This document shows positions 3,053 to 61,535 of a stretch of DNA of 64,000 nucleotides, piece after piece. This stretch comes from Trileptium ribeirensis (taxonomy: Eukaryota > Nematoda > Enoplea > Enoplida > Thoracostomopsidae), in the NCBI GenBank assembly GCA_030248225.1, contig JASANE010007084.1, forward strand, positions 41,895-105,894, in the 5' to 3' direction. The notes beneath the pieces were generated by a model. It worked only from the letters and a program-made list of their open reading frames with translations, was not told the origin of the DNA and did not search any database. Positions within the stretch are counted from its first letter, which is position 1, and each line of letters opens with the position of its first letter. The translations under genes and the position numbers were made by a program.

Positions 3053-3540
3053 AGGTTTCACAGAATAATGAGTGCAAAAAGTAGGCAGTTTTGTCTTTAA
3101 CAGCGGTTTGCAAAAAAATAGTCTCTTATGGATGGTTATACGATATTTTAGTTTCTTGCAAACGGCTGCTAGGGATTTTTGTCTTTAATGACTGCTTGTT
3201 TGATATTTAAATCTCTAACAGAGAGCTGTAAGAGACTTTAGTCTTATATAGATAGCTCATAAATACAAAAAACTCTAGCAACTAGCTGTTAGAGACTATA
3301 ATCTCTTGCAGGTAGCCATAGCAGATTATTGTCTCTAAAGACTAGCTGTTAGAAACCTTTGTCTCTTACAGGCAGTTATAAAATACAAAAGTCTCTAATA
3401 GCTGTCCATTAGAATTTCAAATATTTAAAGGTTGGTTGTAAGAGATTTTTGTATTTTACAGCTGGTTGTAAGAGACAACAGTTTCGAACAGCTAACCATT
3501 AGAAACAAATGTCTGTTAAAGCAAGCTCATTATTGATTTT
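3053..3540. repeat. left arm of large internal inverted repeat
   Basis: This stretch matches the reverse complement of 6580-7063 along its whole length with only scattered differences. It is built from diverged units of roughly 40 bp around TCTCTAACAGCTAG and CTAGCTGTTAGAGAC, so each arm is itself full of small palindromes. The layout resembles foldback-type elements nested between hAT ends. Confidence 0.85.
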
Positions 3541-4430
3541 GGTGCCCCTCTAATTTGACATTGATGCCCCTGTCTAGTTTGATATTTTTGCCCACTCGAG
3601 TTTTATATTGGCCCCTCCCATCCAGTTTGACATTGGTCTCCAGTTTGATATTGGTGCCCCTCCAGTTTGATATTGGTTACGCCTCCAGCTTGATATCGGT
3701 GCCCCTCCAGTTTGATATTGATGACCGTGTATAGTTTGATATTGGTGCCACCCTTGAACATTATATTGGCTCCTCCCCTCCAGTTTGACATTGTATCCAG
3801 TTTGATATTGGAGCCCGCTCCAGTTTGATATTGGCGCCCCGCTCCAGTTTGATAGTGGTAGTCCCCTCCAGATTGACATTGCTGAACCCTCCAGGTTGAT
3901 ATTGGTGCTCCCAGTTTGATATTAGTGCCCCCGCCAGTTCGATATTTGTCCCCCCTCCAGTTGGATATCGGTGCCCCCTCCAGTTTGATATTGGTGTTCC
4001 CTTCCAGTTTGTTTTTGGTGCCTCATACAATTGGATATACGTGCCCTCCTCCAGTTTCACATTCATGTTCGCCTTTAGTTTGATAGTGATGCCCCCTCCA
4101 GTTTGATATTGGTGCCCTCCTCCAGTTTGATATTGGCACCTCACTCCAGTTTGATAATGGTGTCCCCGTTTCATATTGGTGCCTCTTCCAGTTGGATATT
4201 GGTGTTCCCCTCCAGTTTGATATTGGTGCCCCCCTCCAATTGGATATAGGTGCCCTTCTCAAGTTTGACATTCATGTTCGCCTTTAGTTTGATAGTGATG
4301 CCCCCTCCAGTTTGAGATTGGTGCCCTCCTTCAGTTTGATATTGGAACCACCCTCCAGTTTGATAATGGTGTCCCCTCCAGTTTGATATTGGTGCCCCTC
4401 CAGACTTATATTGGTGCCCCTCTAGATCGA
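3541..4430. repeat. minisatellite, CTCCAGTTTGATATTGGTGCC units
   Basis: About 35-40 variable units of 20-27 bp around CTCCAGTTTGATATTGGTGCC. The array starts exactly where the left inverted arm ends. The same unit occurs in opposite orientation next to the right arm (6401-6579), so the minisatellite belongs to the inverted-repeat structure. Long minus-strand reading frames rich in Gln-Tyr-Gln-Thr-Gly across the array are by-products of the repeat. Confidence 0.85.
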
Positions 4431-6400: not shown

Positions 6401-6579
6401 GGGAGGCACCAATATCAAACTGAACGGGGCGCCAATAATAAACTAGAGGGGCACACCAATATTAAACTGAAGTGATGCACCAATATCAAGCTGGAGAGGG
6501 CACCATTATGAAACTGGAAGGTGCACTAATATCTAGCTGGATGGGGCACCAATATTAAACTGGAGGGGGCACCAACATC
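6401..6579. repeat. inverted counterpart of the GGTGCC minisatellite
   Basis: Units such as GGGGCACCAATATTAAACTGG are the reverse complement of the units at 3541-4430. Only about seven are present here against 35-40 on the left, so the two sides have expanded or contracted independently. Confidence 0.8.
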
Positions 6580-7063
6580 AATAATGAGCTTGCTATAACA
6601 GATATTTGTTTCTAATGGCTAGCTGTTAGAAACTTTTGTCTCTTATAGCCAGCTGTAAAATACAAAAATCTCTTACAACCAACCTTTAAATATTTGAAAT
6701 TCTAATGGACAACTATTAGAGACTTTTGTATTTTATAACTGTCTGTAAGGGACAAAAGTTTCTAACAGCTAAACTTTAGAGACAGTAATCTGCTATGGCT
6801 AGCTGCAAGAGATTATAGTCTCTAACAGCTAGTTGCTAGAGATTTTTGTATTTATGAGCTATCTATATAAGACTAAAGTCTCTTACAGCTCTCTGTTAGA
6901 GATTTAAATATCAAACAAGCAGTCATTAAAGACAAAAATCCCTAGCAGCCGTTTGCAAGAAACTAAAATATCGTATAACCGTCCATAAGAGACTTTATTT
7001 TTTTGCAAACGGCTGTTAAAGACAAAACTGCCCACTTTTTGCACTCATTATTCTGTGAAACCT
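6580..7063. repeat. right arm of large internal inverted repeat
   Basis: Reverse complement of 3053-3540. The outer edge reads AATGAGTGCAAAAAGTGGGC on the minus strand against AATGAGTGCAAAAAGTAGGC in the left arm. The high match over nearly 500 bp implies the arms are younger than the decayed flanks or have been kept alike by gene conversion. Confidence 0.85.
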
Positions 7064-8892: not shown

Positions 8893-9473
8893 TTATGAAT
8901 TCTGAAGCCACCATACTCTTCTATCATAATCCCCATAGTCATAAAAAAGCTGATCGCCTTTTTTCAGTGTCACTAATGCTTTGAAGAAAATGTAGTCAAC
9001 GCCATTTACTTCTTGCAAAAAAGGCTTCAGGTTAGGATGCAGGCGAGAGTGGTTGATGTAGCGCCCTTTTCGCTTGCTGCTGAGAGCATCAATACATTGC
9101 CACTTGTCACGTCTATCTTTATAGAAAAACAAATAGCAACTGAAGTTCTTCTTCTTTGCTTTCCTGAACGCTTTGACTCGAGAGTTCTCTCGGTAAATTC
9201 CAACTGAACGCGAAACACATTGCCCATGATATATGCAGATTAATTCTCCTGCCTCGAAATTCTTGTCCACATATACTCCTTTCCCGATCGCCGGGTCTCC
9301 AGTGTGACGAACAATGAGGGATTTTCGATCGTTAGCTACCAACTGCTCAAGAAATTCTGGTGCATAACTACGTTTAGAATGAGTTATCGTTCGCTTGGCA
9401 CGATCTCGGTAACTCACCTTCTTGTCTTCGAGAGCTTGGAGTATTCTTATCTCTAACGTGTCGTCAACTTCTT
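8893..9473 (-). CDS. gene A terminal exon: KMT5A/SETD8-like SET-domain lysine methyltransferase
   Basis: The exon follows an acceptor (TATTTTCACTTTTAG) and encodes a split codon plus 192 residues, ending in TAA. The SET domain fills most of it. Counting from the first full codon, a GKG cofactor-loop motif lies at 63-65, IYHG at 80-83, RYINHS at 137-142 and FYDYGD at 176-181. This order and spacing match KMT5A (PR-Set7/SETD8), which monomethylates histone H4 Lys20 using S-adenosylmethionine. There is no post-SET cysteine cluster, as in KMT5A. A nuclear methyltransferase role is inferred; the substrate is unproven. No ATG precedes the domain within the open frame, so the protein must begin in upstream exons. 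An internal AAG-GTGAGT at about 9417 looks like a strong splice donor, yet the frame reads through it into the domain. KMT5A-like genes can be multicopy in invertebrates, so this may be one of a family. Confidence 0.88.
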
Positions 9474-10347
9474 CTAAAAGTGAAAATACGCTGCCATATT
9501 AATTAAAGGCAGAGTAGCACGCATATGGGTGTCAAACATAGTGGATATGTAGACAGAACTGTCTTTCTAAACATAATAATAGGTAAATAATAATTAATGA
9601 AAACTGGGTTTTGTCCAAGGTAGAGGCGGTAGATTTTTCAGGGCAGCCCACAATCTGCTATGAATACAAAGTAGAAAGAGTTCAATTTGAACATACAATT
9701 GACAACCGTGAACGTTTCTGCTCAGATAGACACCTGGCGTTCCTATTTGTTAAAGTATAACAAATTCTACCCAAAGTTTAATATGTTATCTAACCTACAT
9801 TTACACGCTACATATTTGTTGAGTTAGAATTTACGTAGGTGTGAAATAAAATTGATTTCTATACGTGCAAAGTAAATGTTTTCCATTACCTTTGGACTTT
9901 TAGTGCACTAAATTCGAGAAAACATGCAATTTTTGCACCAAATCCACAGCCTTAAAGAAAGTAAGCTTAAGTGATTATGCTATTTTAGCGAAAAGATATT
10001 GTCACATAGTTGTGCCTTTTACAATTTTTGTCTATCTCCAAGCTGCAGTTTGCGACGCCTACGGCCCAAAGGAATTTTTGCTCTTTCCTACACTATAATT
10101 ATGTAAAGATTGGTATATTGCCAAAGTATTAACATAGGTAGTCATGAAGGTTTGTCCTGGATTGCTTGGTTTGCTTTCTCTTTCTCTTTTTAATGGTCAT
10201 TGCATTTGAACAATTTTTGCGGTAGTTGGGAAAGGGCCAGAAAGTTGTGTTCCGCAAAGCTGTATATCTCGATGAACTGGTTTTGCTGGACCCTAGCCGA
10301 ATGAACTGGTCTTTTGGACCATAACCGTAGCAAGCATTAATTAAAAA

Positions 10348-10785
10348 CATAATTCAAAGTAAACTCTGCAACGGAAGAGACCTTTACCGTGGCATTTCCC
10401 ATAAGGGTCGATAACGTTATGGCACATCGAATCATAGGCATATCGTCTATTGACTCTTCTGCGGAAATATATTTATTACTGTTGGGTTTTGTGAACCCTA
10501 GGTCCTAGAAAATATTTCTTCAAAAATGAAAGTTTCAAAGTGAACTCTACACTGCAAGAAGCCTTCGACGCGGAATTACTCACAAGGGTCAATGACTTCC
10601 GGGATGATTTCTGGAGGGTTCCCCTATATTTATTACCGTTGGGTTTTGTGAACCCTAGGTCCTAGAAAACATTTCTTCAAAAAATGAAAGTTTCAAACTG
10701 AACTCTACAGCGCAAGAAGCCGTCGACGCAGAATTTCTCACAATGGTCAATTACTTCCGGGATGATTTCTGGAGGGTCCCCCACT
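10348..10785. repeat. 157-bp tandem repeat, about 2.7 copies
   Basis: GTTGGGTTTTGTGAACCCTA starts at 10481 and again at 10638, giving a 157-bp period. The two full units share AAAATGAAAGTTTCAAA, GCAAGAAGCC and CTTCCGGGATGATTTCTGGA. A more diverged partial unit precedes them from about 10348. Confidence 0.8.
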
Positions 10786-10980
10786 TCGTTGTCCCTAACT
10801 GCTGTCAACCTTCAAAATGGATTGTTTGCTTCAATTTTTCCATAAATGTATGCGCAACTTATTTTGACCCGGTTGATTGTTAAGTTCTCCAGTGAACCAT
10901 ATGGGGCAGAAGGTTAAGCTGTAGACCTAACAGTACCAGCGAAGCATCCAGTTTGATACGATAGTGTGTTGTAAACTTGA

Positions 10981-11167
10981 CCCACTTCTGGCGGTAAATC
11001 AGTTTATTTTACAAACAAACCGTACAAATATTGACATGATTGCTTACGTACTTGAAAACTCTGTAAAAGAAATGGTAGATAGAGCTGTTTCATTTGATGC
11101 ACAGTTCCGTTTAATCGCAGGAGTTATGTCACCAGCAGCAGGGCCTAAAATTATTGTGCATTTATAG
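10981..11167 (+). CDS. unassigned open frame with protein-like composition
   Basis: Fifty-odd residues reading NQFILQTNRTNIDMIAYV early and AGVMSPAAGPKIIVHL before a TAG stop. Composition is balanced and not repeat-derived, but there is no recognised domain, convincing acceptor or partner exon. It lies inside the presumed last intron of gene A on the opposite strand. It could be an exon remnant of another gene or chance. Confidence 0.2.
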
Positions 11168-12649
11168 ATTGTGGAAACTTGATTATTTTATCAAAAGTTT
11201 TCTAACTGCTTTTCAAAATGCTTTATTTTACGCCCACCTTTAAAATGTTTTAAAAAGGTAAAATTTTAAAATTAAAATCTCCACTATACACAATTGTGGG
11301 GAAATGCATGTATTTACAGTACAGCTTTTTCGTCGTTAAAATTGACAGTATCGAGAAGCAAAGCACATAAGCTGAAATTTTGGACATCAGGCATTCAAAA
11401 ACAAATTAGTACAGACACTGAGGCACCTTTAGCGCGCGTCAACAACAAGCACAAAGCTGTTCGACTAAAATCTGAGACCTGCAGTGCTCGCTCTAGCAGC
11501 AAAGCTGAAATTTATTTCAGCTGAAATGGCAATAGGCTGAAATCCACATATATCTAAAATCGAAAATTAAGTAAAACAGCCTACTGGACTTTTGAGGCTA
11601 TTAATAGCTTGCTTGTTTTATCGCCAAAATGGTGAATATGAGTATTGAATATGTAATCTAGAGGTATCCACAGCTATATTGAACATTAAATTACAAAATA
11701 AGCAACCGAATATCAGTTATGATGGTTGGGAAGATGCACACTATTATTGTCCTCGCAAAGTGCAATTATATACAGGACATATTACTCTGCAAAATGAAGC
11801 CACAAACACCTATATAGCTCTAGCAGTTGCACAGTTATTACCATTTTCACACATTTTAGGCATCATGGCCTTAAAAAACTGCTAGACCATCAGTTTTAAC
11901 AATTATTGCTAATATTATTGTTATTATTATTGCTATTGTTTTACAATTATTGCTATTATTGTTATTATTGTTTTTACAGTTTATTGTTACTATTTGGAAA
12001 ATAATAACAAAGCAGTACACTATTTCCAGCTGCATAGGGAATAAATTTTTCTACGAAATTAAACAATAAACCAATATATCTCGCGTGGTTGTAGAGGTAT
12101 TACCATTTTCGTCTATATTGGGTATCAGAGGCCCATTTTAGAACCCGTTTTGACCGAAAGCCTATTTGTTTAGAGAACGGCCTGAAGTATCATAGGTGCT
12201 TGTTTGCTCTATATTACAAAATAAGCCTAATAAGTCTCAGATATCTACAATAATCTGATAAAATACCCGATACGAGCTCGTTTGACCAGCTTTTTCCAAA
12301 GATATTAGAATCTCATTTAACACCGCTAAATGGCAACAAATATAGCTCGCAAATCAGTCAGCCCAGCCGAAGTTGAGTTATGCGTGCCAATTATAAAGGC
12401 AAATGACAGATTGGTCAAATTCATTTAAATACTGCTGCAGCTAGTAAGAATTCTTTAACTCGCTCGTTTTATTCACTACATTCGGTTATCCCATAGAAAT
12501 TATTTAGATAGAAAATTATTCTGGTTGCAATATTTAAGAAACTTTACAATTGTGGCAGTCGCCAGTGAAATCGGCCAATTTTCAGAATATGAATTCATAA
12601 GTTAATCAGTAATGATAACCACACATACTAGTACTATTTATTACCGCAC

Positions 12650-12739
12650 CAGGCGAACTATCGAAATCGACAGGCTGCACTGCTTCTTCCAAGACAGCTG
12701 TCATATTCTGTGCAGTGACTGCTTCAGTAATGTTTGTGT
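12650..12739 (-). CDS. gene A exon, diverged relative of the tandem 93-nt exon
   Basis: A 90-nt open exon with acceptor CCATGTTTAG and donor CCTG-GTGCGG, phase 1 at both ends. Its protein, TNITEAVTAQNMTAVLEEAV then QPVDFDSSP, aligns end to end with the tandem-exon product (TNAEQGATARETNGAALEE...). It keeps TN, TA, the LEE-V/A-Q core and the acidic tail. Its flanking DNA no longer resembles the 520-bp repeat, whereas splice sites, frame and length are kept within one codon. That pattern points to real coding use. It is the last cassette before the SET exon, whose acceptor has the matching phase. Function of the cassette is unknown; it looks disordered and acidic. Confidence 0.6.
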
Positions 12740-13456
12740 CTAAACATGGTAAATAGCAGCTAAATATTTATAATCAATGCAGTATATTTGTGTAGCTATA
12801 AGTAAATGACTCTCAAATCTACCACAGCAAATGCATGATATAAACAAATTGAATTTTCGTTCTTTCTGTAATTTAGTCTTATCCGACGCAAAAAGGCAGA
12901 GCCGCAAACAATAAAATTGCCCCGAGCATAACGTATGCAGTCTTCAGTCAGTGTTCGCTGTTTATAAATCAAGAATATCTCATGGCAAAATCTTCATACA
13001 GAAATCAAGCATGATCTGTGAGCAGACCTCAGATGTGCCGCTTTTCGTCATACGTTATTTGCGATTGACCATCGCTGGTTATGTGTACCGAGCATCCATT
13101 GTCATGTACGAGAATATATATTTAATATTTCGAACAACACATTCAAAGAGTTATGAAAAATATTGAAATAGTAACATGTTCCTACAGTATATAGCTCCAT
13201 AAAGGCCGTTTGCACTTTAAAGTAGCGAATTTGTATTCGGGGTTTTTACAGGTGGAAGGACACACCAAGTCTTCAATGATCCTGCGTTATCTAAATGAGA
13301 CAAGTAACAGCAATAAAATGATGCAATTTATCTTCAAAAACTAAAAAGAATCCAAAATATGAATTTAACTGCGAAGCGGAATGACATTTCAGAGATAAAC
13401 GAACGTTTAAAAAACTGCGAACAGTGTGAAAGATAATTCGGAATTGACTAGCGTAC

Positions 13457-13549
13457 CAGAAAAAGCATCTGGATCACCGGACTGCACTGTTTCTTCCAAA
13501 GCAGCACCATTTGTTTCCCGTGCAGTAGCACCCTGTTCAGCGTTGGTAT
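13457..13549 (-). CDS. gene A tandem exon, copy closest to the SET exon
   Basis: A 93-nt open exon between acceptor TTATCTTCAG and donor TCTG-GTACGC. It enters and leaves in phase 1 and encodes a 31-residue cassette, DTNAEQGATARETNG, then AALEETVQSGDPDAFS. Being symmetric, it can be included or skipped without shifting the frame. The cassette is acidic and polar with no known fold. Confidence 0.62.
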
Positions 13550-13976
13550 CTGAAGATAATAATTAGCAGATAAATCATTCAGTATCGCTAAATGTATGCA
13601 TTGGAAAATGTCACCAAGAAATTTCTGTAGTAAATGCAATATGCAGCTTGGACTTTCAAGCACTTCTGCAATTTCAAACAATTTCGTGTAATAATAGGAA
13701 CGGTAAGGAGTGTCATGAGCAACAAACTGTCAGAAGCACGGCATACTAAGCAGAAACTGATTATAAACCAAACTACGCAATGTAAATTTTACCAGAGGTA
13801 TGATCTGCGATACCAGCTGCATTAAAATGATAAAATTGTCTTCAAAATAAATAAAAAATCAAAAATCTGAATTTGGCTGCGAAACTAATTGACATTTCAG
13901 AGACAAACGAACGTTTAAAACAAACTGTGAACAGTGTGCCACATAATTCGGAATTGTGTGCCATTGAATAACGTAC

Positions 13977-14069
13977 CAGAAAAAGCATCTGTATCACCAG
14001 ACTGCGCTGTTTCTTCCAAAGCAGCACCATTTGTTTCCCGTGCAGTAGCACCCTGCTCAGCGTTGGTAT
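13977..14069 (-). CDS. gene A tandem exon, second copy from the SET end
   Basis: Same 93-nt phase 1-1 exon, with donor TCTG-GTACGT, closer to consensus than in the first copy. Private changes give ETAQSGDTDAFS in place of ETVQSGDPDAFS. No stop or frameshift. Confidence 0.62.
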
Positions 14070-14496
14070 CTGAAGATAATAATTAGCAGATAAATCATTC
14101 AGTATCGCTAAAATTTATGCATTGGAGAATGTCAGCATAAAATTCTGTAGTAAACGCAATATGCAGTTTGGACTTTCAAGCACTTCTGCAATTTCAAACA
14201 ATTTCATGTAATAATAGGAACGGCAAGGAGTGTCATGAGCAACAAATTGTCAGAAGCACGGCATACTAAGCAGAAACTAATTATAAACCAAACTACGCAA
14301 TGTAAATTTTACCAGAGGTATGATCTGCGATACCAGCTGCATTAAAATGATAAAATTGTCTTCAAAATAAATAAAAAATCAAAAATCTGAATTTGGCTGC
14401 GAAACTAATTGACATTTCAGAGACAAACGAACGTTTAAAACAAACTGTGAACAGTGTGCCACATAATTCGGAATTGTGTGCCATTGAATAACGTAC

Positions 14497-14589
14497 CAGA
14501 AAAAGCATCTGGATCACCGGACTGCACTGTTTCTTCCAAAGCAGCACCATTTGTTTCCCGTGCAGTAGCACCCTGCTCAGCGTTGGTAT
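14497..14589 (-). CDS. gene A tandem exon, third copy
   Basis: Same 93-nt phase 1-1 exon with donor TCTG-GTACGT and the ETVQSGDPDAFS tail. The frame is open and the splice sites intact. Confidence 0.62.
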
Positions 14590-15015
14590 CTGAAGATAAT
14601 AATTAGCAGATAAATCATTCAGTATCGCTAAATGTATGCATTGGAAAATGTCACCAAGAAATTTCTGTAGTAAATGCAATATGCAGCTTGGACTTTCAAC
14701 CACTTCTGCAATTTCAAACAATTTCGTGTAATAATAGAAACGGTAAAGAGTGTCATGAGCAACAAATTGCAGAAGCACGGCATACTAAGCAGAAACTAAT
14801 TATAAACCAAACTACGCAATGTAAATTTTACCAGAGGTATGATCTGCGATACCAGCTGCATTAAAATGATAAAATTGTCTTCAAAATAAATAAAAAATCA
14901 AAAATCTGAATTTGACTGCGAAACTAATTGACATTTAAGAGACAAACGAACGTTTAAAACAAAGTGTGAACAGTGTACCACATAATTCGGAATTGTGTGC
15001 CATTGACTAGCGTAC

Positions 15016-15108
15016 CAGAAAAAGTATCTGGATCACCGGACTGCGCTGTTTCTTCCAAAGCTGCACCATTTGTTTCCCGTGCAGTAGCACCCTGCTCAGC
15101 GTTGGTAT
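15016..15108 (-). CDS. gene A tandem exon, fourth copy
   Basis: Same 93-nt phase 1-1 exon with donor TCTG-GTACGC. Its tail reads ETAQSGDPDTFS. The Ala-to-Thr change is shared with the sixth copy, supporting a two-unit duplication. Confidence 0.62.
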
Positions 15109-15535
15109 CTGAAGATAATAATTAGCAGATAAATCATTCAGTATCGCTAAAATTTATGCATTGGAAAATGTCAGCATAAAATTCTGTAGTAAACGCAATA
15201 TGCAGTTTGGACTTTCAAGCACTTCTGCAATTTCAAACAATTTCATGTAATAATAGAAACGGTAAGGAGTGTCATGAGCAACAAATTGTCAGAAGCACGG
15301 CATACTAAGCAGAAACTAATTATAAACCAAACTACGCAATGTAAATTTTACCAGAGGTATGATCTGCGATACCAGCTGCATTAAAATGATAAAATTGTCT
15401 TCAAAATAAATAAAAAATCAAAAATCTGAATTTGGCTGCGAAATTAATTGACATTTCAGAGACAAACGAACGTTTAAAACAAACTGTGAACAGTGTGCCG
15501 CATAATTCGGAATTGTGTGCCATTGAATAACGTAC

Positions 15536-15628
15536 CAGAAAAAGCATCTGGATCACCGGACTGCGTTATTTCTTCCAAAGCTGCACCATTTGTTTCCCGT
15601 GCAGTAGCACCCTGCTCAGCGTTGGTAT
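15536..15628 (-). CDS. gene A tandem exon, fifth copy
   Basis: Same 93-nt phase 1-1 exon with donor TCTG-GTACGT. The core reads EEITQSGDPDAFS, where others have EETVQ or EETAQ. Splice sites intact and frame open. Confidence 0.62.
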
Positions 15629-16055
15629 CTGAAGATAATAATTAGCAGATAAATCATTCAGTATCGCTAAAATTTATGCATTGGAAAATGTCAGCATAAA
15701 ATTCTGTAGTAAACGCAATATGCAGTTTGGACTTTCAAGCACTTCTGCAATTTCAAACAATTTCATGTAATAATAGACACTGTAAGGAGTGTCATGAGCA
15801 ACAAATTGTCAGAAGCACGGCATACTAAGCAGAAACTAATTATAAACCAAACTACGCAATGTAAATTTTACCAGAGGTATGATCTGCGATACCAGCTGCA
15901 TTAAAATGATAAAATTGTCTTCAAAATAAATAAAAAATCAAAAATCTGAATTTGACTGCGAAACTAATTGACATTTAAGAGACAAACGAACGTTTAAAAC
16001 AAAGTGTGAACAGTGTACCACATAATTCGGAATTGTGTGCCATTGACTAGCGTAC

Positions 16056-16148
16056 CAGAAAAAGTATCTGGATCACCGGACTGCGCTGTTTCTTCCAAAG
16101 CAGCACCATTTGTTTCCCGTGCAGTAGCACCCTGCTCAGCGTTGGTAT
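16056..16148 (-). CDS. gene A tandem exon, sixth copy
   Basis: Same 93-nt phase 1-1 exon with donor TCTG-GTACGC and the ETAQSGDPDTFS tail of the fourth copy. It is the array copy nearest the 5' end of the gene. Confidence 0.62.
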
Positions 16149-16510
16149 CTGAAGATAATAATTAGCAGATAAATCATTCAGTATCGCTAAAATTTATGCA
16201 TTGGAAAATGTCAGCATAAAATTCTGTAGCAAACGCAATATGCAGTTTGGACTTTCAAGCACTTCTGCAATTTCAAACAATTTCATGTAATAATAGGAAC
16301 GGTAAGGAGTGTCATGAGCAACAAATTGTCAAAAGCACGGCATACTAAGCAGAAACTAATTATAAATCAAACTACGCAATGTAAATTTTACCAGAGGTAT
16401 GATCTGCGATACCAGCTGCATTAAAATGATAAAATTTGTCTTCAAAATAAATAAAAAATCTGAATTTGAATGCGAAACTAATTGACATTTCAGAGACAAA
16501 CGAATGTTTA

Positions 16511-17040
16511 AAACAAACTCTGAAAAGTATCAAACGGCACAACTAGGTAACTATATCTTTGCTGCAGATAGCATACTGGTAGATAGCATCTTTTATATTA
16601 TATAAAGCTGTAGAGATGGTACAAAGATTGCGTATTTTTACCGAATTTCGAGAGCAAAAGGCCCAACGGTAGTTGGGAATAGAAATGAAATCAATACAAC
16701 TGCCAAAACTCTGTTCGGTCTCACTATGACGGGCCGTCCTTGCAAATGAACTGTATATTGAATACATAGGTGCTTCGGTCGGCTAAACCAAACTATCGTA
16801 AAAACTCAACTGTAATCAACATTGCTTGAAAATATCCTCAATTTTTTACAAAGTCTTTTCACCTAAAATTAAATATTAGCTTAAAAATATTTCCACATTG
16901 TCAAATAATTGCAACCTGGCACAGCCCAGCCACAGGAACAATTTTCCGTAAGCCGTACGGCCTTTGGACATATTGGCAGGTATATAAACAATATCTTGCG
17001 TTAATACCATATTTCAACATCAGTAATAGGATATTCATAC
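16511..17040 (-). other. presumed intron between the array and the 315-nt exon
   Basis: AT-rich interval. A minus-strand stretch at about 16640-16735 follows an acceptor-like TTCATTTGCAAG and is open in more than one frame, but its composition does not settle which is real, so no exon is called. Confidence 0.35.
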
Positions 17041-17355
17041 CATTATCGCTGGGTAGCAAATTTTCATCGCACTGCTCCTGTTTTGCTTCCTTTAAAAGAT
17101 GATACTGTGTTGCCTGGAATTCACATAAACTTTGATGATCAACCGATGTTTCAGCTATTTGTGTTTTCTCACATGTAGGATTGTCGGGACCCAATGTCTT
17201 GTCCGCATTATCGTAAACCCTGGTATGTTGGCCAGGTAAAAGATTTTGCCGCGTCTGTTGACATATTTGGTTCACAGTGTAGATTTTTGCTTTCAAATAT
17301 TCAGCAGGCACAACCACCACGGTGGATTTGACACAACTGCTATTCACCAGTTCAT
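17041..17355 (-). CDS. gene A exon, 315 nt, phase 1-1
   Basis: The exon runs from acceptor CATATAATTTAG to donor AATG-GTATGA, with phase 1 at both ends, like the tandem cassettes downstream. It encodes 105 residues starting DELVNSSCVKSTVVVVPAEY, with KIYTVNQICQQTRQNLLP in the middle and LLPSDNG at the end. The sequence is polar and Gln/Glu-rich, with no recognised domain, and fits a disordered or weakly helical linker. An open frame of this length with well-placed splice sites and matching phase supports a real exon. The frame continues past both splice sites, so the boundaries are inferred. Confidence 0.6.
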
Positions 17356-17534
17356 CTAAATTATATGAAATAATTGCTAACTCGTAATTTATTTTCTTCA
17401 CTAATGAGAAGTAATACCAGTTAAAGGGCAACTAATCCACCACTATTTACACTCCAATTAAGTCACACATGCTCATGGAAGGGCGATTATCCCTGAGGGT
17501 TGGTTTCTCCAAACTACTAAAATTATACTTGGGG

Positions 17535-17905
17535 GCATGAACTGCGGTTCCCGCATTTGGGAGCTGAGTCCACCCAGTTGAATTGGGGGGCACAAAGTAC
17601 TATAACCATCAAAACGTTGAAATGTCTAATTCGGCAACTGACTGTAATTGTGCTTACTTAAAAACAGGATATTACAGTGACGTTTAGTCCCACATGGGAA
17701 GATTTGCGGATTTTTCAGCAAAAATAGAGAAAAATTGGCATATTTTTAGCACTCCAGAAAAAACATTGGCAACTTTCTAACGTCACAAAAAGTTCCTGTG
17801 GGGACCTGGGGTTAAGGCAAAATTTAACAGAAGGTGCACGAACTGGCGGGAACCTGGGGAGGTCGAAATAGCTGGGCCCCCTATTTGAAGAAGCCAGTGA
17901 GGGTA
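17535..17905 (+). repeat. dispersed repeat family R1
   Basis: Landmarks are GGGGGCATGAACTG at the start, GGGGGGCACAAAGTACTATA, TGTGCTTACTTAAAAA, and an end reading CCCCCTATTTGAAGAAGCCA. The same order recurs at 30660-31400 and, inverted, at 20090-20610, 27585-27730 and 32580-32940. No reading frame is shared, so this looks like a non-autonomous element. Confidence 0.7.
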
Positions 17906-18240
17906 CCCTTACCCCTCCGTGACGCCCGGTACCCCCTCCGACGCGCTGAACGCATGCGGAAAATTTTGCATAATTGGGGAAAAATATGGCAAAAATTGGC
18001 AAAATGGGGCGAAATGGTTGAAAAAGAGGGGAGAGGACGTCGATTATTTTCACCACCCCGCCACAGGCGTAGCCAGAGACAAAGAATGGGGGTCATGGCC
18101 ACCAAAGGCGCCGCACCCTCCGCGGAGGTGCCGCAACCCGCACCCACTCCCTCTCGAATGGAATTGCTGTGGCCTCCAAGCACCGAAGGCGCGCCGGAAA
18201 TTAGTTCTGCAATATTATCGTTACAATGAAATGACGGTGT
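17906..18240. repeat. dispersed GC-rich repeat family R2
   Basis: Contains TGGCAAAAATTGGCAAAATG, CCACAGGCGTAGCCAGAGAC and a CCAAAGGCGCCGCACCC segment. Related stretches are at 28320-28620, 50880-51060, 52090-52470 and 61100-61470. Overlapping open frames on both strands result from high GC content. Confidence 0.55.
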
Positions 18241-19172
18241 TGTCAGTCGCTACAAGCTTAGCAGCAGCTGTTATTTAAGAATGACAGTTGTAGCGTCTAC
18301 AGCTGGTGCTGTTACAATGTTTAAATAAACAAACTAAGTGTATCGACAGCAAAGGTTTCCGCGGGATGGTGAAAAAGAGGAACATTATCATTGCACCGAA
18401 GCTGTAACAGAAACTGTAGTTGCGGAAACAACATGGGCCTACATAAAAAAGTAGCAGGCTCCCTTAGAGAAGGTGGCCTCTCATGGGCGTCCGGGTGGTG
18501 GGGATGTGGCGCCTCCGGTATCCCGACAAACACCTATGAATTCATCGCCTACGGGCATCCAGAGGATAACGTGATCTGTCAAGGGGTCCGAATCTCAGTG
18601 TGAAGGTAACCCGACCCCTATGGGCAAACAAGAGCTGTACGCCAGGGTAACCCCAACTAAGAAAAATGCACGCAATGTTTGTTATATATGCCGCGCGGTT
18701 TTTTACGCGAAATTTGAGTTCAATGCCGGTTTCGCGAAAAATGGGTGTAGAAGGGGACAGGTTCCTTTGTAGTAGTCTTGGGAAACGATCGGTGTTGAAG
18801 TGAAACGATCAGCCGTTGGCCGGCCGTTGAAATATTTGCACTGCCACTCGAGGGTATAACAGAAGGCCGACCGTTCATTGGCTGATCAACAGCAGATAGA
18901 TGGTTGACTGCTAGGAATTTACTACCCGCCAAGACATAATTTGATGCAAGCCAAAAAATAGTGAAAATGCGATCTCACGATGGATTGTCGAAGTAATTTA
19001 AGTACTAACGTAATTCTAAATGCAAGTATCGACATGTTATTGCAAAACAAGATTCAAAACTGCACTGATAAAAAAATTTTATGGAAAAGCGACTTTTTTT
19101 ATTATGTTTTAGGGCTATCGTGTGTTATTGCTTAAACTGCTCCAATACTAGACAAAATAACTTTATCGCTAC
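18241..19172. other. non-coding interval with a small GC-rich palindromic island
   Basis: No exon recognised. GCCGTTGGCCGGCCGTTGAA near 18812 resembles the islands near 1620-1700 and 930-1000 and probably belongs to the same class of short inverted-repeat elements. The rest is unremarkable intron or intergenic DNA. Confidence 0.4.
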
Positions 19173-19481
19173 CGGTTGTCGATCTGTCCAAGTTTTTGCC
19201 AGATGCTTCATGTTCGAGCGCTCTGCGGAAGCGTTGCTGTTTTAGCTGTATTGCTGCTAGATTTGCTTGACGCGGTAAAGTTACAGACGTTGTATTTTGC
19301 GCACATGTTGAGTATTCAGGGTCCACAGCAGCAACAGCATTGTCGTGAGCAATCGTACTACCACTGGTCGCGATTTGTCGTCGCTGCTGGGGTATTGCAG
19401 TCACAGCGCTGATTTGTGCAGGGAAGAATTCACCAGGCGTGACCATTGCAGCCTTCTCCGGAGAAGGCCCATTTAATATTT
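19173..19481 (-). CDS. gene A exon, 309 nt, phase 1-1
   Basis: Acceptor TTTTTAAACAG opens the exon and a weaker donor ACCG-GTAGCG closes it, again phase 1 at both ends. It encodes about 103 residues beginning ILNGPSPEKAAMVTPGEFF and ending ASGKNLDRSTTG. The middle (ALEHEASG, QLKQQRFRRALE) is Gln/Ala-rich and may form a helix. If the weak donor is not used, the frame stops at TAA (19132-19134), which would make this a terminal exon. An ATG at 19444-19446 could serve as an internal start. No domain is recognised. Confidence 0.55.
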
Positions 19482-19567
19482 CTGTTTAAAAATATAATAT
19501 CAATGAGGAGCCAGAGCAAATCATGCGTGAAATATAAACGTGTAGTACAAATTTGCAGAAACTTTAC

Positions 19568-19626
19568 CTGTAATTCTATCCACGAGAAGTGGATTTGCAA
19601 TAGCTTTGCATCCACGCGAGGATTTG
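19568..19626 (-). CDS. gene A exon, 59 nt, most upstream found
   Basis: A strong acceptor (CCTTACTTTTATTATAG) and donor (ACAG-GTAAAG) bound a 59-nt open stretch. It leaves in phase 1, matching the next exon across an 86-nt intron, and enters in phase 2. Protein: KSSRGCKAIANPLLVDRIT. The joined product reads on into ILNGPSPEK. No upstream exon was found within 1.5 kb; the candidate at 29412-29503 has the matching phase but lies beyond the Ulp1 gene. Confidence 0.5.
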
Positions 19627-20089
19627 CTATAATAAAAGTAAGGATTAAATATTTGTCCATGTAAAGATTTGAGCAAAACCAGTGCTGATATTACCGAGTC
19701 AACCAAAATATATTATTGTACATTTTTCAAAAGGTTCATTTTACTAACATTTCTGATTTCGAAGTATCGGCTCTAATGATGAACTAAACAAAATACACAG
19801 GATACTTAAAAACGCTTGCTTTCGTGAAAATGTTATTCTAATAGGCACGTCCACGTTTGTGGTACAGACAATCTTAGATAAACTCACACCATATTAGCAA
19901 CTTTATATTTGTACACGCAGTCATCTGAAAACTTAGCTAATGTTTCATGTTTACAGCTGCCAATTCAAACTACAACATTTAGCCTAAGTTAAGAACAAGA
20001 ACATTCCTTTTGAGCTCTCACTGTGGATGCAGGCATCTGCGTGGTAAGCATGCAGCACTGGCACTGAGAAGGCACTTGGGATTTCCACC
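19627..20089. other. non-coding interval
   Basis: AT-rich DNA upstream of the first recognised gene A exon. A promoter or missing 5' exon could lie here, but nothing specific can be supported. Confidence 0.35.
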
Positions 20090-20610
20090 TGCCCAGGTTT
20101 CCTTAGGTCATGGCTCAGGTACACTTACTGGGTTCTCCAAGGAGGAGCCCCCAAGTATTTGGAGCTCCCCCAGTTCGTGCCCCCTAGATAAATTTTGGCT
20201 TCCCCAGTTCATGCCCCAGGTGTTTTTTTGTGATACTAAAAATTTCCAAATTTTTATATGGAGGGTAATAAACATGCAAATTTTTCTCTATTTTTGCTAA
20301 AAACTCCCAAATTTTCCCATAAAATACTAAAAATCGCTGTAATTTCTCGTTTATAAGTAAGGACATTTACAATCGGTTGCTGAATTACGCATTTTTTACG
20401 TTTTGTTATGGTTAAAGTACTTTATGTTCCCCCAGATGAACTGGCGGGAGCCCCCCCACGTAACTGGCTTAGAAATATGCTGAATTTTCACTGTATTGGC
20501 TAAAGATACCCAAATTACATATCCATCAAAATACATGATCCCTAATTTACGCATTTTTACAGCCAGAATATTTCATGGTCCCCCAGTTAAACTTGGGGAA
20601 ATAAACCAGA
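20090..20610 (-). repeat. dispersed repeat family R1, inverted copy
   Basis: Reads GGTTCTCCAAGGAGGAGCCC, CCCCAGTTCGTGCCCCC, AAATTTTGGCTTCCCCAGTT and, further on, AAAGTACTTTATGTTCCCCC. These are the reverse complements, in order, of the landmarks at 17535-17905. Confidence 0.7.
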
Positions 20611-21120
20611 CGGAAGCCTTCCAACTATATTCAGCGGCCACCAGTGGGAGAGGCGCTGGTTTATGCCCACAGGTATAATTTTAATAATTTTAAGAAGCCA
20701 GATTATGCAAACTTCTACTTCTACCAGGTAATATCATTTCTCACTTAGAGAAAAACACAAGTTATTGACACAGCTAATAAGTTAGAGTATGGTTTAAATT
20801 ATGAGTCAAATTATGGAACAAAACATTTTCTTTACAACTGTCAGCTTTCTAAACCGTAAAAATTGTATTTTGTTATTAAAAATAAAAGAGAGTAGTTTTA
20901 TATGTAGGCACACGACAAATATAAGCAGTTAAAGTAATATTTCCGTTTTTGATAATAAAAAGTTATTTTGTAATTTGAAAGAGAGCTCCACAAATTTGTA
21001 TGGCTAGGCTAGGCTATAAATTTGGTATGATTTGTAATTTACAGCCAATTTTTGCCGTCGTTACATAAAGATAAAATGTTTAATAGCCCATATTTTTAAT
21101 ATTATTCGTGATGAACTTTA
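20611..21120. other. non-coding interval downstream of gene B
   Basis: AT-rich with no recognised gene. It should include the 3' UTR of the Ulp1-like gene. Confidence 0.4.
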
Positions 21121-21824
21121 TTACAAGAGAAATAAATTACCTCTTAACCGTTCGCGAAACAATTCACACTGATTTCGAGATAACCCAAACATAAAATCGA
21201 GACCGCGAACGGCCCGAACAGCAGCTTCGATCACGTAAATCCCGCAATCGTTTTTACTTCTTTGTTCGCTGGGACATGTGTCTAGGATTATTTTCCATGT
21301 TTCGTGCTGCCATCCCATCGAGTCGCATATCATTTTGTGTAAACGTTCAGCGAAATTCCTATCGTGCTGATTAACGGAACAATAAACACGACTTTCGCGA
21401 ACCACAAAGGAATAATTCATGAAAAACAACTGCCAATGCAAGGCACCATTACGCAGCACAACATTCATCGGAATCAAAATTTTTTGAATCAAACCACCGG
21501 ATTGGTTTATGGCATCGTTTATCTCATCTTTAAGTTCTAAAATTTGGTTGGGCATAGCGTCAATAGTGTAACGGTCGTTCCATGCCGCGGCTACCACAGA
21601 GTCGACTACACACCACCCGTCGATGTTTGCATATTGCTTAATCACGCCGGTAACAACGTTATCAGTTAATTTTTGATGTGGCTGCAAACAATTTATGTCA
21701 TCATTGTCAATGGGAAGACCGCCAAGAGTTTTGGTCGAAAAAGAGAAATCTCCGCTGCTGCTTTGGCCGCTTTCGATGATGAGTGATGTATCCAGCATAC
21801 TATCATCAGTTTTCAAAACAGAAC
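21121..21824 (-). CDS. gene B terminal exon: Ulp1/SENP-family (C48) cysteine protease domain
   Basis: The exon follows acceptor ATTTTGCATTTAG and ends in TAA. Numbering from the in-frame ATG at 21844-21846 as 1, GALHWQLFF places the catalytic His at 137 and NDCGIYV the nucleophile Cys at 201, with oxyanion Gln at 195 (SEQRSKNDC). This His...Gln...Cys layout marks Ulp1/SENP proteases, which remove SUMO or NEDD8-like modifiers. The catalytic Asp expected after His (a YDS-like motif) is read as YCS, Cys 156, so activity may be impaired. GGLPIDNDDINCL at 42-54 fits the usual N-terminal substrate-binding segment. The exon enters in phase 1 and joins the exon at 23662-23761 in frame. Without splicing, the ATG gives a 241-residue protein. 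Ulp1 domains also occur in some DNA transposons, so a mobile origin is possible. Confidence 0.82.
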
Positions 21825-23661
21825 CTAAATGCAAAATGGCACACATTCTATAAGACACAAGCTAACAGCACAATGCTAACCAAAACCAATTTTATATCTA
21901 CGATAGCAAAGTTGTTAGAAGGCGTCTTTTCTGGACTACATAGAGTTTAACTTGATTGTTTCGTGCACCATATTTTATGTACCCAATGTAACCTGAGTTC
22001 TCAGAAATTCCACACAAGTAAAATATTTTCGTGCTACCGTGCGAAACGAACTTTGTAAATTTGAGCTATGGATTCCACAAGACAGCCAAATATGGCGAGA
22101 TGAAAATAATTTATTCAATAAATGTTAGAGCTATAAAGGGCATACGTCGTTTAAAACGAAATTTAACAGGCGCGACAGCACGTAGCCGCACTGAGATCTT
22201 TGTACGAGACTGACCGCTTGTTTGCTATTACAAATGTGCCACAGCAGTATGCAAGCTCAACATCGCTACCTAAGAATTCATTGCAATATGTATTTTAACT
22301 TTGTAATGTAGCTTAAGCTTTTTGTCTTGCTTCTTGGGAGCTGTTTTCGACAATTTTGTACCGTGGAAAGTAGCAGTTTATTTATGCCCATTCGGCCAAA
22401 GTAACGCTGCTCAGGGTTACTTGGGCAGTATATTCTATATCTAATATAATACGACAGCGTAATGTCATTACAGCATACTCAAGAGCTATGTTTGGCAGCC
22501 AATTTCTCTATGGCGAGATATATGATGTTATTGTGTACTAGTCTTGCACCGCAGGTCGGTCGCCGCTTTTGCAGGCCAGTTCGACGACAACGGCCAAGAC
22601 TAAAAATTAGACAGATTCATATATGATAAAAAAGAACATGTTAAATCCCATTGAGTTTGGTAGGACTGCTTTACCGTTGCCATGTCACTGAAAGGATGAC
22701 GATGTGCCATGCGCAGTCGCGCAAAATCCGAAAACAATGTCACAACCGTCAGGCACGTTAATAATACGGTAACAATCTCCAACACGACTCTTAAGTCCTA
22801 AGGAATTATGTTTCGTTGTGATACGTGTTTTCGAAGTATGGACTATTTCTCATCATAAAATCATCAGAGCGTGTACTCAATCGCGCCGGGCAATCATATT
22901 AATAAAATAGAACAGCATGTCATTGCTATGCGCATGTCAAGGTAAACTTAACCAGCACCCACTACCCAATTTTTAATATTTATTTGGCAGTTTAATTTTA
23001 GTACAGGCGTTTGATATGTTGGATAAAAAATGTTACCCAAGAGTTCATGATAGTCGATGATAGTCGTTACACTTGTCAACGTCCGCGGTACATCGCATTT
23101 GTTTTCGCCGGTACATCGTCATATTTAGACCCCGCTTGGTGCGTCATATACATGACGCGTCCCCAGCTTGTTCTTGAACCACCGATTTGTACCACCATCC
23201 TGTTAATGCGGAATGTCAAATACCTACCCACACCAAGTTCTTGAACCATTAAACCATACTCCACCATGATCTTGAATCTAGGAAAAATCGTTAAAGTTGA
23301 CAAAATTGAGGAATGTTTTTGAAATAGTGGGAAGATTGGCAAAGATTTGAGAAAAATCCAGCAAAATTTAAATAACTAAGTTTCTAAACATTCCAAAAAT
23401 TATACCTCGACTCCTGACTTAACCTTTTCCCTGAACTATCGGCCCCCCTCCCCAACTCTAAGTCGATAGACCATGAACACGTATCGGTGATAGTTTTAAT
23501 ATTCATGAAACATTTTGTAAAAATTAATTTAAATTATCAAAATGTACCAGTTTGTCAACTTGAACATCAAAAAATGGTGCGAAGCTGGAAAAACTAATAT
23601 AGTTTGCGTTTTGACACTCATAAAATATATATAAATTAATCTTCCACCGTCCAGAACTCAC
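21825..23661 (-). other. presumed intron of gene B
   Basis: AT-rich interval with no exon recognised. A 65-bp GC-rich island at about 22538-22602 is bounded by TAGTCTTG and CAAGACTA, an inverted pair. The R1-like motif AAAATCCAGCAAAATTTAAA lies near 23350. Confidence 0.4.
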
Positions 23662-30659: not shown

Positions 30660-31400
30660 TACTGGCCTGTCCACCGACAAGTGGGAGGGGCGTTCGGGGC
30701 CCCCATGTTCATCTCGGGGAATCTCAAAGTGGGGGAACTTTCCTTAAAAATGCTAAATATTTTCACATTTTCACGTACTCTTACTGTCGTATAAGCATTT
30801 TAGACTTTAAAACGGTGTTTTAGTATCATAAATAGTGCTAATTCATGCTTAAAAACAATTTGGATACAAAAAATATAAATTTTGAGACAAAAATTTATTT
30901 TTTTAGATTCAGTTGAACATGAGCTTCTTGGCCGAGTCGAGGGGGACAGACATGGGGAAAATCACACGAACATGGGGAGATTTCTAATGTGGGGGTCGCC
31001 CCCCACTGTCGACAGGCCAGGGGCGCCACCTGGGAGGTCCACAGTTTGAAACTCGCTATTTCCCCAGTTCATCTCTCCAGTTGATTTGGGGGAGCATAAA
31101 GTATTGTAACTGTCAGAAAACGTCAAAAATTTGCAATTTAGCAACACGTTACAATTGTGCGTACTTAAAAAGAAAAATTTTAGCTATTTTAGGTCCGCAG
31201 AGAATTATATGTAATATTTTTGCCAAAATATGGAAAAAATTGCATATTTTATATCATCATAGATAACTTTTGCAATTTTTAGTGGCAAAAAGAACATGCT
31301 GAACCTGGAGAGCATAAACTGACCGAAGCCAAAATTTACCAGAGGGCGTACACTGGCGGAACCTAGGAGCCGTCTCCCCTATTTGGAGAAACCAGGAATG
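30660..31400 (+). repeat. dispersed repeat family R1, longest copy
   Basis: Contains GGGGGAGCATAAAGTATTGT, TGTGCGTACTTAAAAAG, AACCTGGAGAGCATAAACTG and an end reading CCCCTATTTGGAGAAACCAG, in the same order as 17535-17905. It lies inside a presumed gene C intron. The 5' part (30660-31080) repeats GGGG-and-CATG motifs and may be a second, nested copy. Confidence 0.65.
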
Positions 31401-32579: not shown

Positions 32580-32940
32580 TCTCCATAGAAGTGGAGGGCC
32601 CCAAGTATTTTGACCTCAGCCACGTTCCCGTCCCAAGGTAAATCTTGGCCTCCCTCAGTTCATGCCCCAGATATTGTTCTGATCCACTAAAATTACTAAA
32701 TCTTTGTCTGATGCGCTAGAAATGTGTGAGTTTTCTAAATTTTGGCTGGAAATAGTACTAATTTACATCTACGATGCTAAAAATAAACAAAATTTCCCTT
32801 TTAGTAGTACACTTGCAACAGGTTGTCAAATTAGACATTTTTCCATTTTCTGCCGGTTATAGTACTTTATGTTTGCTTCAGGTCGTCTGAATGTCAGCTC
32901 ACGTCTAGCTAATGCCCCCTCTATAAATTTGTAGTTTGAA
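32580..32940 (-). repeat. dispersed repeat family R1, inverted copy
   Basis: GGCCCCAAGTATTTTGACCT, CTCCCTCAGTTCATGCCCC and GTTATAGTACTTTATGTTTG follow the inverted order seen at 20090-20610. Confidence 0.65.
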
Positions 32941-39063: not shown

Positions 39064-40397
39064 AATTACCGACCGGTGTCGTTGGTCTCGAACTGCTGCA
39101 AAATCATGCAACGGATCATTAATAAGTGCTTGCTAAATCACATTCAAACATCAAATATTTTATCTCAAAATCAACATAGATTTATCGCTAAACGGTACAC
39201 TAGCACTCAGTTAATCGAGAGTGTCTGGGACTGTGCAAACGATATAGACAAAAATCTGTCAGTAGACGTAGCTTATATCGATTTTGCGAAAGCGTTCGAC
39301 ATCGTTTCCCATACAAAACTCGTGTATAAGCTCTGTCTTGGAATATCTGCGAATGTGTAGCTTGGTTAAATAGCTTTTCGTCAGACAGGAAGTTTCGGAT
39401 TAAAATGAAGAACAGCTATTCCAGCTACAAATCCGTTCTATCTGGTGTTTCTTAAGGCAGTGTCCTTGCAGCAACATTATTCACGTTATATATTAATAAT
39501 TTAATTGAATATGTTAAAATATGCTCTAACGTTAACATAAAGTTGTTTGCCGATGATGCTAAATTATACATAACGATCCCAGAAGAAAATAGCCAAATTG
39601 CTAAAACTAATATGCAAAATGCACTAAACCTAATTTCGGAGTGGTCTGAAAAAATGGAAACTTGCGATTTCGGTTTCAAAATGTCAAATTTTGCATATAG
39701 GGCGTAAAAACCCACATTTCTCATATACCCTATCAGGAAACACCATACCACACAACGAAATCTGTCGCGATCTCGGAGTATGCATCACTAAAGACTTAAA
39801 ATTCAAGCATCATTGCAGAGATATAGTGAGCAAAGCATACCGAATATCTTGTTCCGCTGTTTCTTAACTTCTGATATTGAAGTACTTCGTCGTGCATATA
39901 TTACATATGTTCGGCCAATACTGGAATACGCGTCTCCCGTTTGGTCACCTGTGTATTCAGGAGATCTCGATATCATAGAGCGGGTCCAACGCTACTACAC
40001 AAGGAGTCTGTATGATCGTTTAACGCTGACTCCAACGCAGTACAATGAAAGACTAATATTTCTCGGTCTAGAACCACTTGAGCTAAGGAGACTACAATTC
40101 GACCTTATTGCAATTTTCAAATTTATCAAGAATGAATACGATTCAATTATAAAATTATCCCCTACTACCGAAACGCAAACAAGTGGCCACAGTTGCATAA
40201 TATATAAACCTGCGTTCAGAATCAACGTACTACACCATATATTTCCAATGCGGGTAATAAAATATTGGAATGCCTTGCCATCGACAATAGACGGAATACC
40301 TTTAGTTACGGCTTCGAGTTCAAAAGTGTTTAAAACACTACTACGTAAAATAGATTCTGCAAATAATTTAAAATACGATAGAAAATTAAAAATTTGA
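39064..40397 (+). pseudogene. non-LTR retrotransposon reverse transcriptase (CR1/Jockey-type), 5'-truncated and broken
   Basis: Reverse-transcriptase motifs appear in order: ISLVSNCCKIMQRIINK-like start at 39076, YIDFAKAFDIVSH near 39273, SGVS-stop-GSVL at 39441 (family form SGVPQGSVL, with Gln now TAA at 39453-39455), and LFADDA at 39543-39560 with the catalytic Asp pair. The C-terminal thumb region (ILEYASPVWSP, RVQRYYTRSLYDRL, YNERLIFLGLEPLELRR) ends with TGA at 40395-40397. The coding frame shifts near 39345-39362 and again between about 39660 and 39870. The endonuclease and upstream half are absent, as expected from 5' truncation during target-primed insertion. It is not functional. Confidence 0.9.
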
Positions 40398-44552: not shown

Positions 44553-45150
44553 AACACATCACTCCAATAGAGTTGGAGCACCAGTAGAATTAGAATCGCC
44601 TGACTTGGATCCCGAATCGAATTAGGATCGCTTGACTAACACTACCAATTGTATTAAAAGAATAGATTAGCTTGGAGCCCCTGTAGGATTACAATCGCTT
44701 GACTCGGAGCCCGAATCAAATAGGATCGGTTGACTAACACTACCAATTGTATTAAAAGAATAGATTAGCTTGGAGCCCCAGTAGGATTAGAATCGCCTGA
44801 CTCGGAGCCCGAATCGAATTAGGATCGCCTGACTAACACTACCAATTGTATTAAAAGAATAAATTAGCTTGGAGCCACAGTAGGATTAAAATCGCCTGAC
44901 TCGGAGCCCGAATCGAATTAGGATCGCTTGATTAACACTACCAACTGTATTAAAAGAATAGATTAGCTTGGAGCCCCAGTAGGATTAGAATCGCCTGACT
45001 CGGAGCCCGAATCCAATTAGGGTCGCTTGACTAATACCGCCAATTCTATTAATAAGATACATTAGGTTGGAGCCCCAGTAGGATTAGACTCGCCTGACTC
45101 AAAGCCCGAATCGAATTACGATCGCTAGACTAACACCGCCAAACTAGTTA
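44553..45150. repeat. 99-bp satellite, about six units
   Basis: ATTAGCTTGGAGCC recurs at 44666, 44764, 44863 and 44962, with a diverged copy (ATTAGGTTGGAGCC) at about 45061, giving a 98-99 bp period. Units share GACTCGGAGCCCGAATC and ACACTACCAATTGTATTAAA. Within a unit, AGTAGGATTAGAATCGCCTG and GAATTAGGATCGCTTGACT are themselves alike, suggesting the 99-mer arose from a ~50-bp ancestor. Confidence 0.93.
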
Positions 45151-45837: not shown

Positions 45838-46578
45838 ATTTAAACGAAACTCAATAGGCATGTCATTTTTAGCTAGTATAAATACACTTAAATACAAAAG
45901 CCAAAACCGATGGAACTGCCGTTTTACAACCGGCCAAAGCAACATAACTATCCTCTACAATCTTACGAGAAACTCAATAAGGATGTCATTTTTAACTAGT
46001 TTAAATCCACCTTAATACAAAAGCCAAAACCGATGGAACAACCGTTTTACAACCGGCCAAAGCAACATAACTATCCTCTACAATCTTACGAGAAACTCTA
46101 TAAGGATGTCATTTTTAACTAGTTTAAATCCACCTTAATACAATAGCCAAAACCTATGGAACAACCGTTTTACAACCGGCCAAAGCAACATAACTATCCT
46201 CTACAATCTTATGAGAAACTCAATAAGGATGTCATTTTTAGCTAGTTTATATCCACCTTAATACAAAAGCCAAAACCTATGGAACAACCGTTTTACAACC
46301 GGCCAAAGCAACATAACTATCCTCTACAATCTTACGAGAAACTCAATAAGGATGTCATTTTAACTAGTTTAAATCCACCTTAATACAAAAGCCAAAACCG
46401 ATGGAACAACCGTTTTAAAACCGGCCAAAGCAACATAACTATCCTCTACAATCTTACGAGAAACTCAATAAGGATGTCATTTTTAACTAGTTTAAATCCA
46501 CCTAAATCCAAAAGCCAAAACCGATAGAACAACCGTTTTACAACCGGCCAAAGCAACATAACTATCCTCTACAATGTT
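45838..46578. repeat. 123-bp satellite, six units
   Basis: TGTCATTTTT starts at 45861, 45984 and 46107 and continues at about that period. Units share GAGAAACTCAATAAGGATGT, GATGGAACAACCGTTTTACA and CATAACTATCCTCTACAATC. The first unit is the most diverged, and one unit has lost a T in the TTTTT run. Confidence 0.94.
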
Positions 46579-61470: not shown

Positions 61471-61535
61471 CATTATGCAGGGCTGCGTTTGACCTAGACA
61501 CAACCCTAAAACCTCTGTAACCCTCACGCCTTATA

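Follow-up and report, generated by a model that had tools for sequence, protein, structure and literature searches.

Tandem arrays of symmetric exons are already known. The KIV-2 coding variable number tandem repeat of LPA has a 5.6-kb unit with two exons, which encodes a kringle domain and occurs between 1 and about 40 times in an allele (PMC11462820). In Tetrahymena, arrays of 90-bp exons with phase 2 introns have been described in thousands of leucine-rich-repeat genes from ten species and were ascribed to unequal crossing-over, possibly with retrotransposition (PMC6564038). Moreover, tandem exon duplications were surveyed in human, fly and worm, obscurin being one example (PMC9013439). These accounts follow extracts of the cited papers. 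Here we describe a minus-strand gene from the nematode Trileptium ribeirensis, found in a 64-kb stretch of contig JASANE010007084.1 (39% GC; "the window" hereafter means this whole stretch), in which a terminal exon with a KMT5A-like SET domain is preceded by nine symmetric exons, six of them in a tandem array. It is the carriage of such an array by a KMT5A-like gene that is new; among the titles and opening lines of abstracts listed by our literature search, none described such an array in a gene of this type. We consider it probable that this is a single gene, encoding a divergent KMT5A-type protein whose N-terminal half has grown by intragenic tandem duplication of two symmetric exons, with additive splicing as the default.

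The likeness to LPA KIV-2, as extracted, lies in tandem near-identical coding units within one gene, copy number in LPA setting the length of the protein. The unit described here, in contrast, measures 520 bp, holds one 93-nt exon, encodes an acidic stretch and is known from one sequence. With the Tetrahymena genes, so far as the extract describes them, the locus shares arrays of small, equal exons in a single intron phase, yet here the phase is 1, one gene is in view, and the cassette is acidic, unrelated to leucine-rich repeats and placed ahead of an enzyme domain. Several duplicated coding exons in one gene, as in obscurin, are also a feature of the human, fly and worm survey, whereas the genes named in the extract of that survey are others, with no SET methyltransferase among them. 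Copying of small exons is a known route of gene growth, unusual for this kind of enzyme.

The SET terminal exon occupies 8893–9473 on the minus strand (581 nt including the stop, 193 residues). Its reading frame spans 8893–9498 and its phase-1 acceptor lies between 9474 and 9473. Upstream on the same strand are exon B (12650–12739, 90 nt), the six 93-nt exons A6 (13457–13549), A5 (13977–14069), A4 (14497–14589), A3 (15016–15108), A2 (15536–15628) and A1 (16056–16148), and two larger exons, E2 (17041–17355, 315 nt) and E1 (19173–19481, 309 nt), encoding modules of about 105 and 103 residues, respectively. All nine cassettes are in phase 1 at both ends; AG precedes every exon and GT follows all but the SET exon. 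An earlier note on this DNA had proposed exons of 309, 315, six times 93 and 90 nt, all phase 1-1 and on the strand of the SET exon, and both the coordinates and the splice dinucleotides agree with it. Since each cassette is phase 1-1, every duplication preserves the SET frame. The introns between the A exons are 426–427 nt long. Splice sites were ranked with a generic splice-site table among the 3587 GT and 3311 AG sites of the minus strand of the window. The donors of A1–A6 fall at the 98.4–99.1 percentile and their acceptors at the 90.6th. A further, tentative exon u0 (19568–19626, 59 nt) is bounded by AG and GT of high rank (acceptor at the 95.0 and donor at the 99.2 percentile) and has no homology support; it is entered in phase 2 and left in phase 1, so that it is not a symmetric cassette. 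The introns of the gene also hold other repeats. A dispersed repeat lies at 17574–17907 between E1 and E2, and its inverted copy (73%) at 20118–20444, between u0 and a protease-like open reading frame (ORF) further upstream, is similar to 31077–31360 and 32599–32873 as well. Within the long B–SET intron, a 158-bp direct duplication (92%) is found at 10468–10782.

Judged from their sequences, E1 and E2 are homologous and constrained at the protein level, and together these two features argue more strongly than anything else in the analysis for true coding exons upstream of SET. The two modules share about 28% protein identity (29 of 103 aligned codons), and their local alignment score of 103 was reached by none of 5000 shuffles (mean 26.3, standard deviation 4.9). 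When the 159 nucleotide changes were placed randomly over the 309 aligned bases, none of 5000 versions attained the observed protein score and 4988 acquired a stop. The remaining five frames all contain stops and have lower scores. Among the 95 ORFs of at least 80 residues in the window, E1 and E2 included, the two are each other's best match; the next scores are 33 for E1 and 47 for E2. In the flanking sequence the two exons are not clearly alike (11 of 25 and 7 of 15 positions). Neither module has a solved relative in the PDB up to an E value of 5, and no Pfam match reached a cut-off for E1, E2, A4 or B. A common origin of the E and the A/B cassettes was considered and rejected, as 1509, 2067, 3598 and 4097 of 5000 shuffles reached the observed score in the four comparisons made. 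A search of the window with two profiles for more E-like or A/B-like exons gave, beyond the known exons, a best E value of 0.052.

The tandem array as a whole spans 13310–16528. A BLAST search of the window with the A4 unit returned five full-length matches (the query counted), the A6 exon with a diverged tail, and one partial unit that lacks the exon. Six head-to-tail copies of exon plus intron are thus present with a 520-bp unit and equal phase 1-1, where at least three such copies define an intragenic array. At its 3′ edge, the tail at 13310–13456 is diverged and the A6 match is 85% identical overall; compared with A4, A6 differs at 1 of 93 exon sites, while 254 of 259 upstream intron sites and 120 of 139 sites of the downstream tail are identical. 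Pairwise divergence among A1–A5 amounts to 1.1–5.4% in the exon and 0.9–4.4% in the intron. A1 and A3 are nearly identical, with 5 differences in 528 compared sites, so that blocks of two units were probably copied too. Exon B is related to the A exons as a diverged copy and differs from A4 at 35 of 90 aligned exon sites. The A/B protein score is 47 against a null of 18.6 (standard deviation 3.8) and was reached by 0 of 5000 shuffles, and at the DNA level by 0 of 1000. A1–A6 together with B encode 216 residues with a net charge of −42 and an isoelectric point of 4.05, each A cassette contributing −6, which bears out the acidic character of the spacer that had been proposed before in front of the SET domain. 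The SET exon itself carries a net charge of +13; its first 60 residues are net 0, the positive charge lying in residues 61–193.

A KMT5A-like SET exon with a phase-1 acceptor was likewise part of the earlier claim, and Pfam, the PDB and the position of the splice site all agree with it. The domain matches PF00856 over the whole profile (1–105 of 105) with 58.8 bits against a cut-off of 22.4 (E 8e-16). A PDB search with the SET exon matched 29 sequences; KMT5A/SET8 takes the first 14 places (best 52.9 bits, E 3.8e-13), and PRC2/EZH2-type chains come next at 48.4 bits. In the databases, the closest proteins found are unnamed products from two flatworms, Mesocestoides corti and Dicrocoelium dendriticum, with 32–34% local identity, and the M. 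corti protein matches human KMT5A with an E value of 1.8e-52. The columns invariant with these two KMT5A-type proteins are G72, G74, V75, N149, H150, S151, Y186, D187, Y188, W197 and L198. The GxGV, NHS and YDYGD motifs and the WL C-terminus are all kept, and we take the three motifs to be those of cofactor binding and catalysis. The exon ends in YDYGDYDRRVWWLQNS, like the YDYGD...HPWLK end of the two flatworm proteins. A PIP-like motif, in the form that we assume for it, is absent at the aligned site. On the same KMT5A chain of the PDB, the cestode KMT5A-type protein scores 165.9 bits against 52.9 for the SET exon, and the PRC2/EZH2 chains follow closely behind; the protein is therefore KMT5A-like but divergent, and the gene is probably a divergent KMT5A-type paralogue. 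The likeness to KMT5A/SET8/PR-Set7 lies in the best PDB match, the NHS motif and the C-terminal end, and the difference in the low identity to the flatworm proteins and in the anchor to the nucleosome. Human SET8 grips the nucleosome acidic patch through Arg188 and Arg192 (PMC7893823, in extract; numbering taken as that of the 352-residue isoform). In an alignment made via the flatworm protein, which is weak at this place, R43 aligns to Arg188 but P47 to Arg192. The anchor of the protein described here looks incomplete, and because of this we call it KMT5A-like and not a KMT5A orthologue.

Searches for relatives beyond these gave little. Stretches matching the patterns of the SET exon, the SET alignment and E1/E2 were found in IMG/VR (11, 66 and 49, respectively), of which 0 were confirmed as relatives. 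Searched against NCBIfam, SET, E1 and E2 gave a single match below 1e-3, in which SET hit a bacterial effector model at a score far short of the model's cut-off. An AlphaFold model of the SET exon, built from three sequences, had a mean predicted local distance difference test score of 50.6 and a predicted template-modelling score of 0.44 and was not usable. None of the 193 residues of the SET exon, from acceptor to stop, is a methionine; therefore the upstream exons are needed for translation from a normal start.

A number of observations weigh against a single gene with additively spliced cassettes. The acceptor of E2 is the weakest site, at the 68.4 percentile of AG sites. No supported start codon was found: a scan of 19627–21120 with relaxed limits gave four compatible ATG candidates, all without other support, which include exons of 5 nt and 35 nt and of which two have poor donors. 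Two protein searches, limited by word and by length, gave one and three proteins, one common to both, the second search covering 25–28% of the 481-residue query; none of these proteins was shown to carry the cassettes and no close relative was among them. Within the array, the A exon is not visibly more conserved than its intron, with 7 of 93 variable sites in the exon among A1–A5, compared with 17 of 260 in the upstream and 8 of 175 in the downstream intron. Adding A6 brings the counts to 8 of 93, 19 of 260 and 42 of 175; the diverged A6 tail accounts for the rise in the last of these. Five of the eight variable exon sites among A1–A6 are non-synonymous, which is close to the 200 to 69 expected of single changes under neutrality, and the A copies may be too young to reveal selection. 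As proteins, A and B are also only weakly constrained, since 400 of 5000 random versions match the observed score and one antisense frame, also open, scores 60 against 55 in the true frame.

Such a neutral-looking array would be expected if E1, E2, B and the SET exon formed a real gene and the 520-bp array were an expanded intronic repeat, its 93-nt segment being a cryptic exon or a relic, left out of most transcripts. The partial unit without an exon, which lies at the 5′ (transcript) side of the array (16149–16528, 95% identity), fits this account too, and so do the slight constraint on the A/B protein, with its equally high antisense score, and the open frames, four of the six being open in five of the six A copies and three in the sixth. 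The six open A frames were in fact rejected as coding evidence, because 93-nt frames are often open in the window (20% of 20,000 random minus-strand stretches in the single tested frame); of the claim of six 93-nt exons, one per 520-bp repeat, the copies, the unit and the splice sites stand, while the open frames are weak evidence. Nine independent agreements in phase were rejected likewise: E1/E2 and A/B being each homologous, the phases trace to two founder exons. Both rejections remove apparent support and do not refute that the A segments are exons. What speaks against a purely intronic repeat is exon B, a diverged copy with identical bounds and phase. Its likeness to A extends across the splice signals, with 19 of 25 nt shared ahead of the exon and 10 of 15 behind it, and is lost further out in the introns (8 of 25 and 5 of 15). 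The high ranks of the A donors and acceptors point the same way, and we regard an intronic repeat as rather unlikely.

A different doubt concerns the locus as a whole, which could be a decaying duplicate or a SET gene borne by a mobile element, without function. The window is rich in repeats, the SET exon has diverged from KMT5A, as its bit score shows beside that of the cestode protein, and a 337-residue protein of Lingula anatina joins an integrase core to a SET domain (precomputed Pfam; its match to the query has an E value of 0.63), which suggests that mobile elements can carry SET domains. Set against these points are an intact SET frame of 193 residues with conserved KMT5A-family positions and the protein-level constraint on E1/E2; besides, a Pfam scan of a handful of ORFs, which was not systematic, showed no integrase or transposase. 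Decay or mobile origin is therefore judged quite improbable. As to how the A exons would be used, a mutually exclusive choice, in which each transcript takes up a single A exon and all isoforms are equally long, is highly improbable: the cassettes are symmetric, so that exclusion is not imposed by the frame, the 426–427-nt introns generally suffice for successive splicing, and A1–A6 differ at just five non-synonymous sites, so that choosing among them would alter little.

Returning to the single gene with additive splicing, a history of successive duplications can be proposed. An old duplication would have given rise to E1 and E2, and one of intermediate age would have set the lineages of B and A apart; A1–A6 would then be the product of a burst of recent unequal crossing-over with homogenisation. 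The divergence of E1/E2, A/B and the A copies is graded, hence the six-copy array would be the latest of at least three episodes. Unequal crossing-over with homogenisation could account for the pattern of the array; alleles, we infer, may differ in copy number. The gene would show the same mode of growth captured at three stages of divergence, and would make a clear, small example of the reuse of symmetric exons.

With default additive splicing, the A exons would all be included, so that about 216 residues of acidic and probably disordered spacer would lie between the E modules and the SET exon. Gain or loss of a unit would lengthen or shorten this spacer by 31 residues with the frame intact. 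Should the array be part of the mRNA, a methyltransferase of the histone type would carry a coding repeat whose length could vary by unequal crossing-over while the frame is kept, and a natural length series would be at hand for testing whether a stretch of acidic residues modulates a chromatin enzyme. Because selection on the array exons is not apparent when they are compared with their introns, an effect of spacer length on the enzyme is something that we only infer, and the interpretation put forward in the earlier note is weakened to that extent; its symmetric cassettes, the sixfold amplification of one family and the acidic stretch hold. Perhaps the array even acts as a device for tuning length and charge, in which the acidic A tract and the nucleosome acidic surface, or DNA, compete to bind the basic SET domain, and allelic copy number or exon skipping sets the engagement with chromatin. 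This is very doubtful; if true, heritable epigenetic strength would vary through a polymorphism of exon count in a KMT5A-like paralogue.

Upstream of the known exons of the SET gene, the 246-residue ORF mentioned above lies on the minus strand at 21124–21861, with an AATAAA that overlaps its stop. It has a weak match to the SUMO proteases SENP5/SENP7 (E 0.07–0.17) and no Pfam match at the cut-off; its HW and CG motifs are presumably those of Ulp1-type proteases. A reverse-transcriptase fragment is found on the plus strand at 39792–40397, with 56 database relatives, the best two being 48% and 51% identical. PF00078 is present in 4 of the 56, and the one record among them that names an organism is from the crab Petrolisthes manimaculis, at 35% identity. 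We assume that the fragment is probably the C-terminal part of a reverse transcriptase of the non-LTR (long terminal repeat) class. Scans of the window with Rfam (gathering cut-offs) and for tRNA genes found nothing. Two large tandem arrays occupy 54520–58138, with a 54-bp unit in about 67 copies and no ORF of at least 120 residues, and 61534–64000, with a unit of 187/372 bp that reaches the end of the window. Smaller arrays have units that are multiples of three, namely 123 bp in 6.1 copies at 45846–46597 and 99 bp in 5.7 copies at 44573–45136. Finally, the segments 3533–4420 and 6405–6581, about 2 kb apart, share a minisatellite unit of 23–24 bp in opposite orientations.

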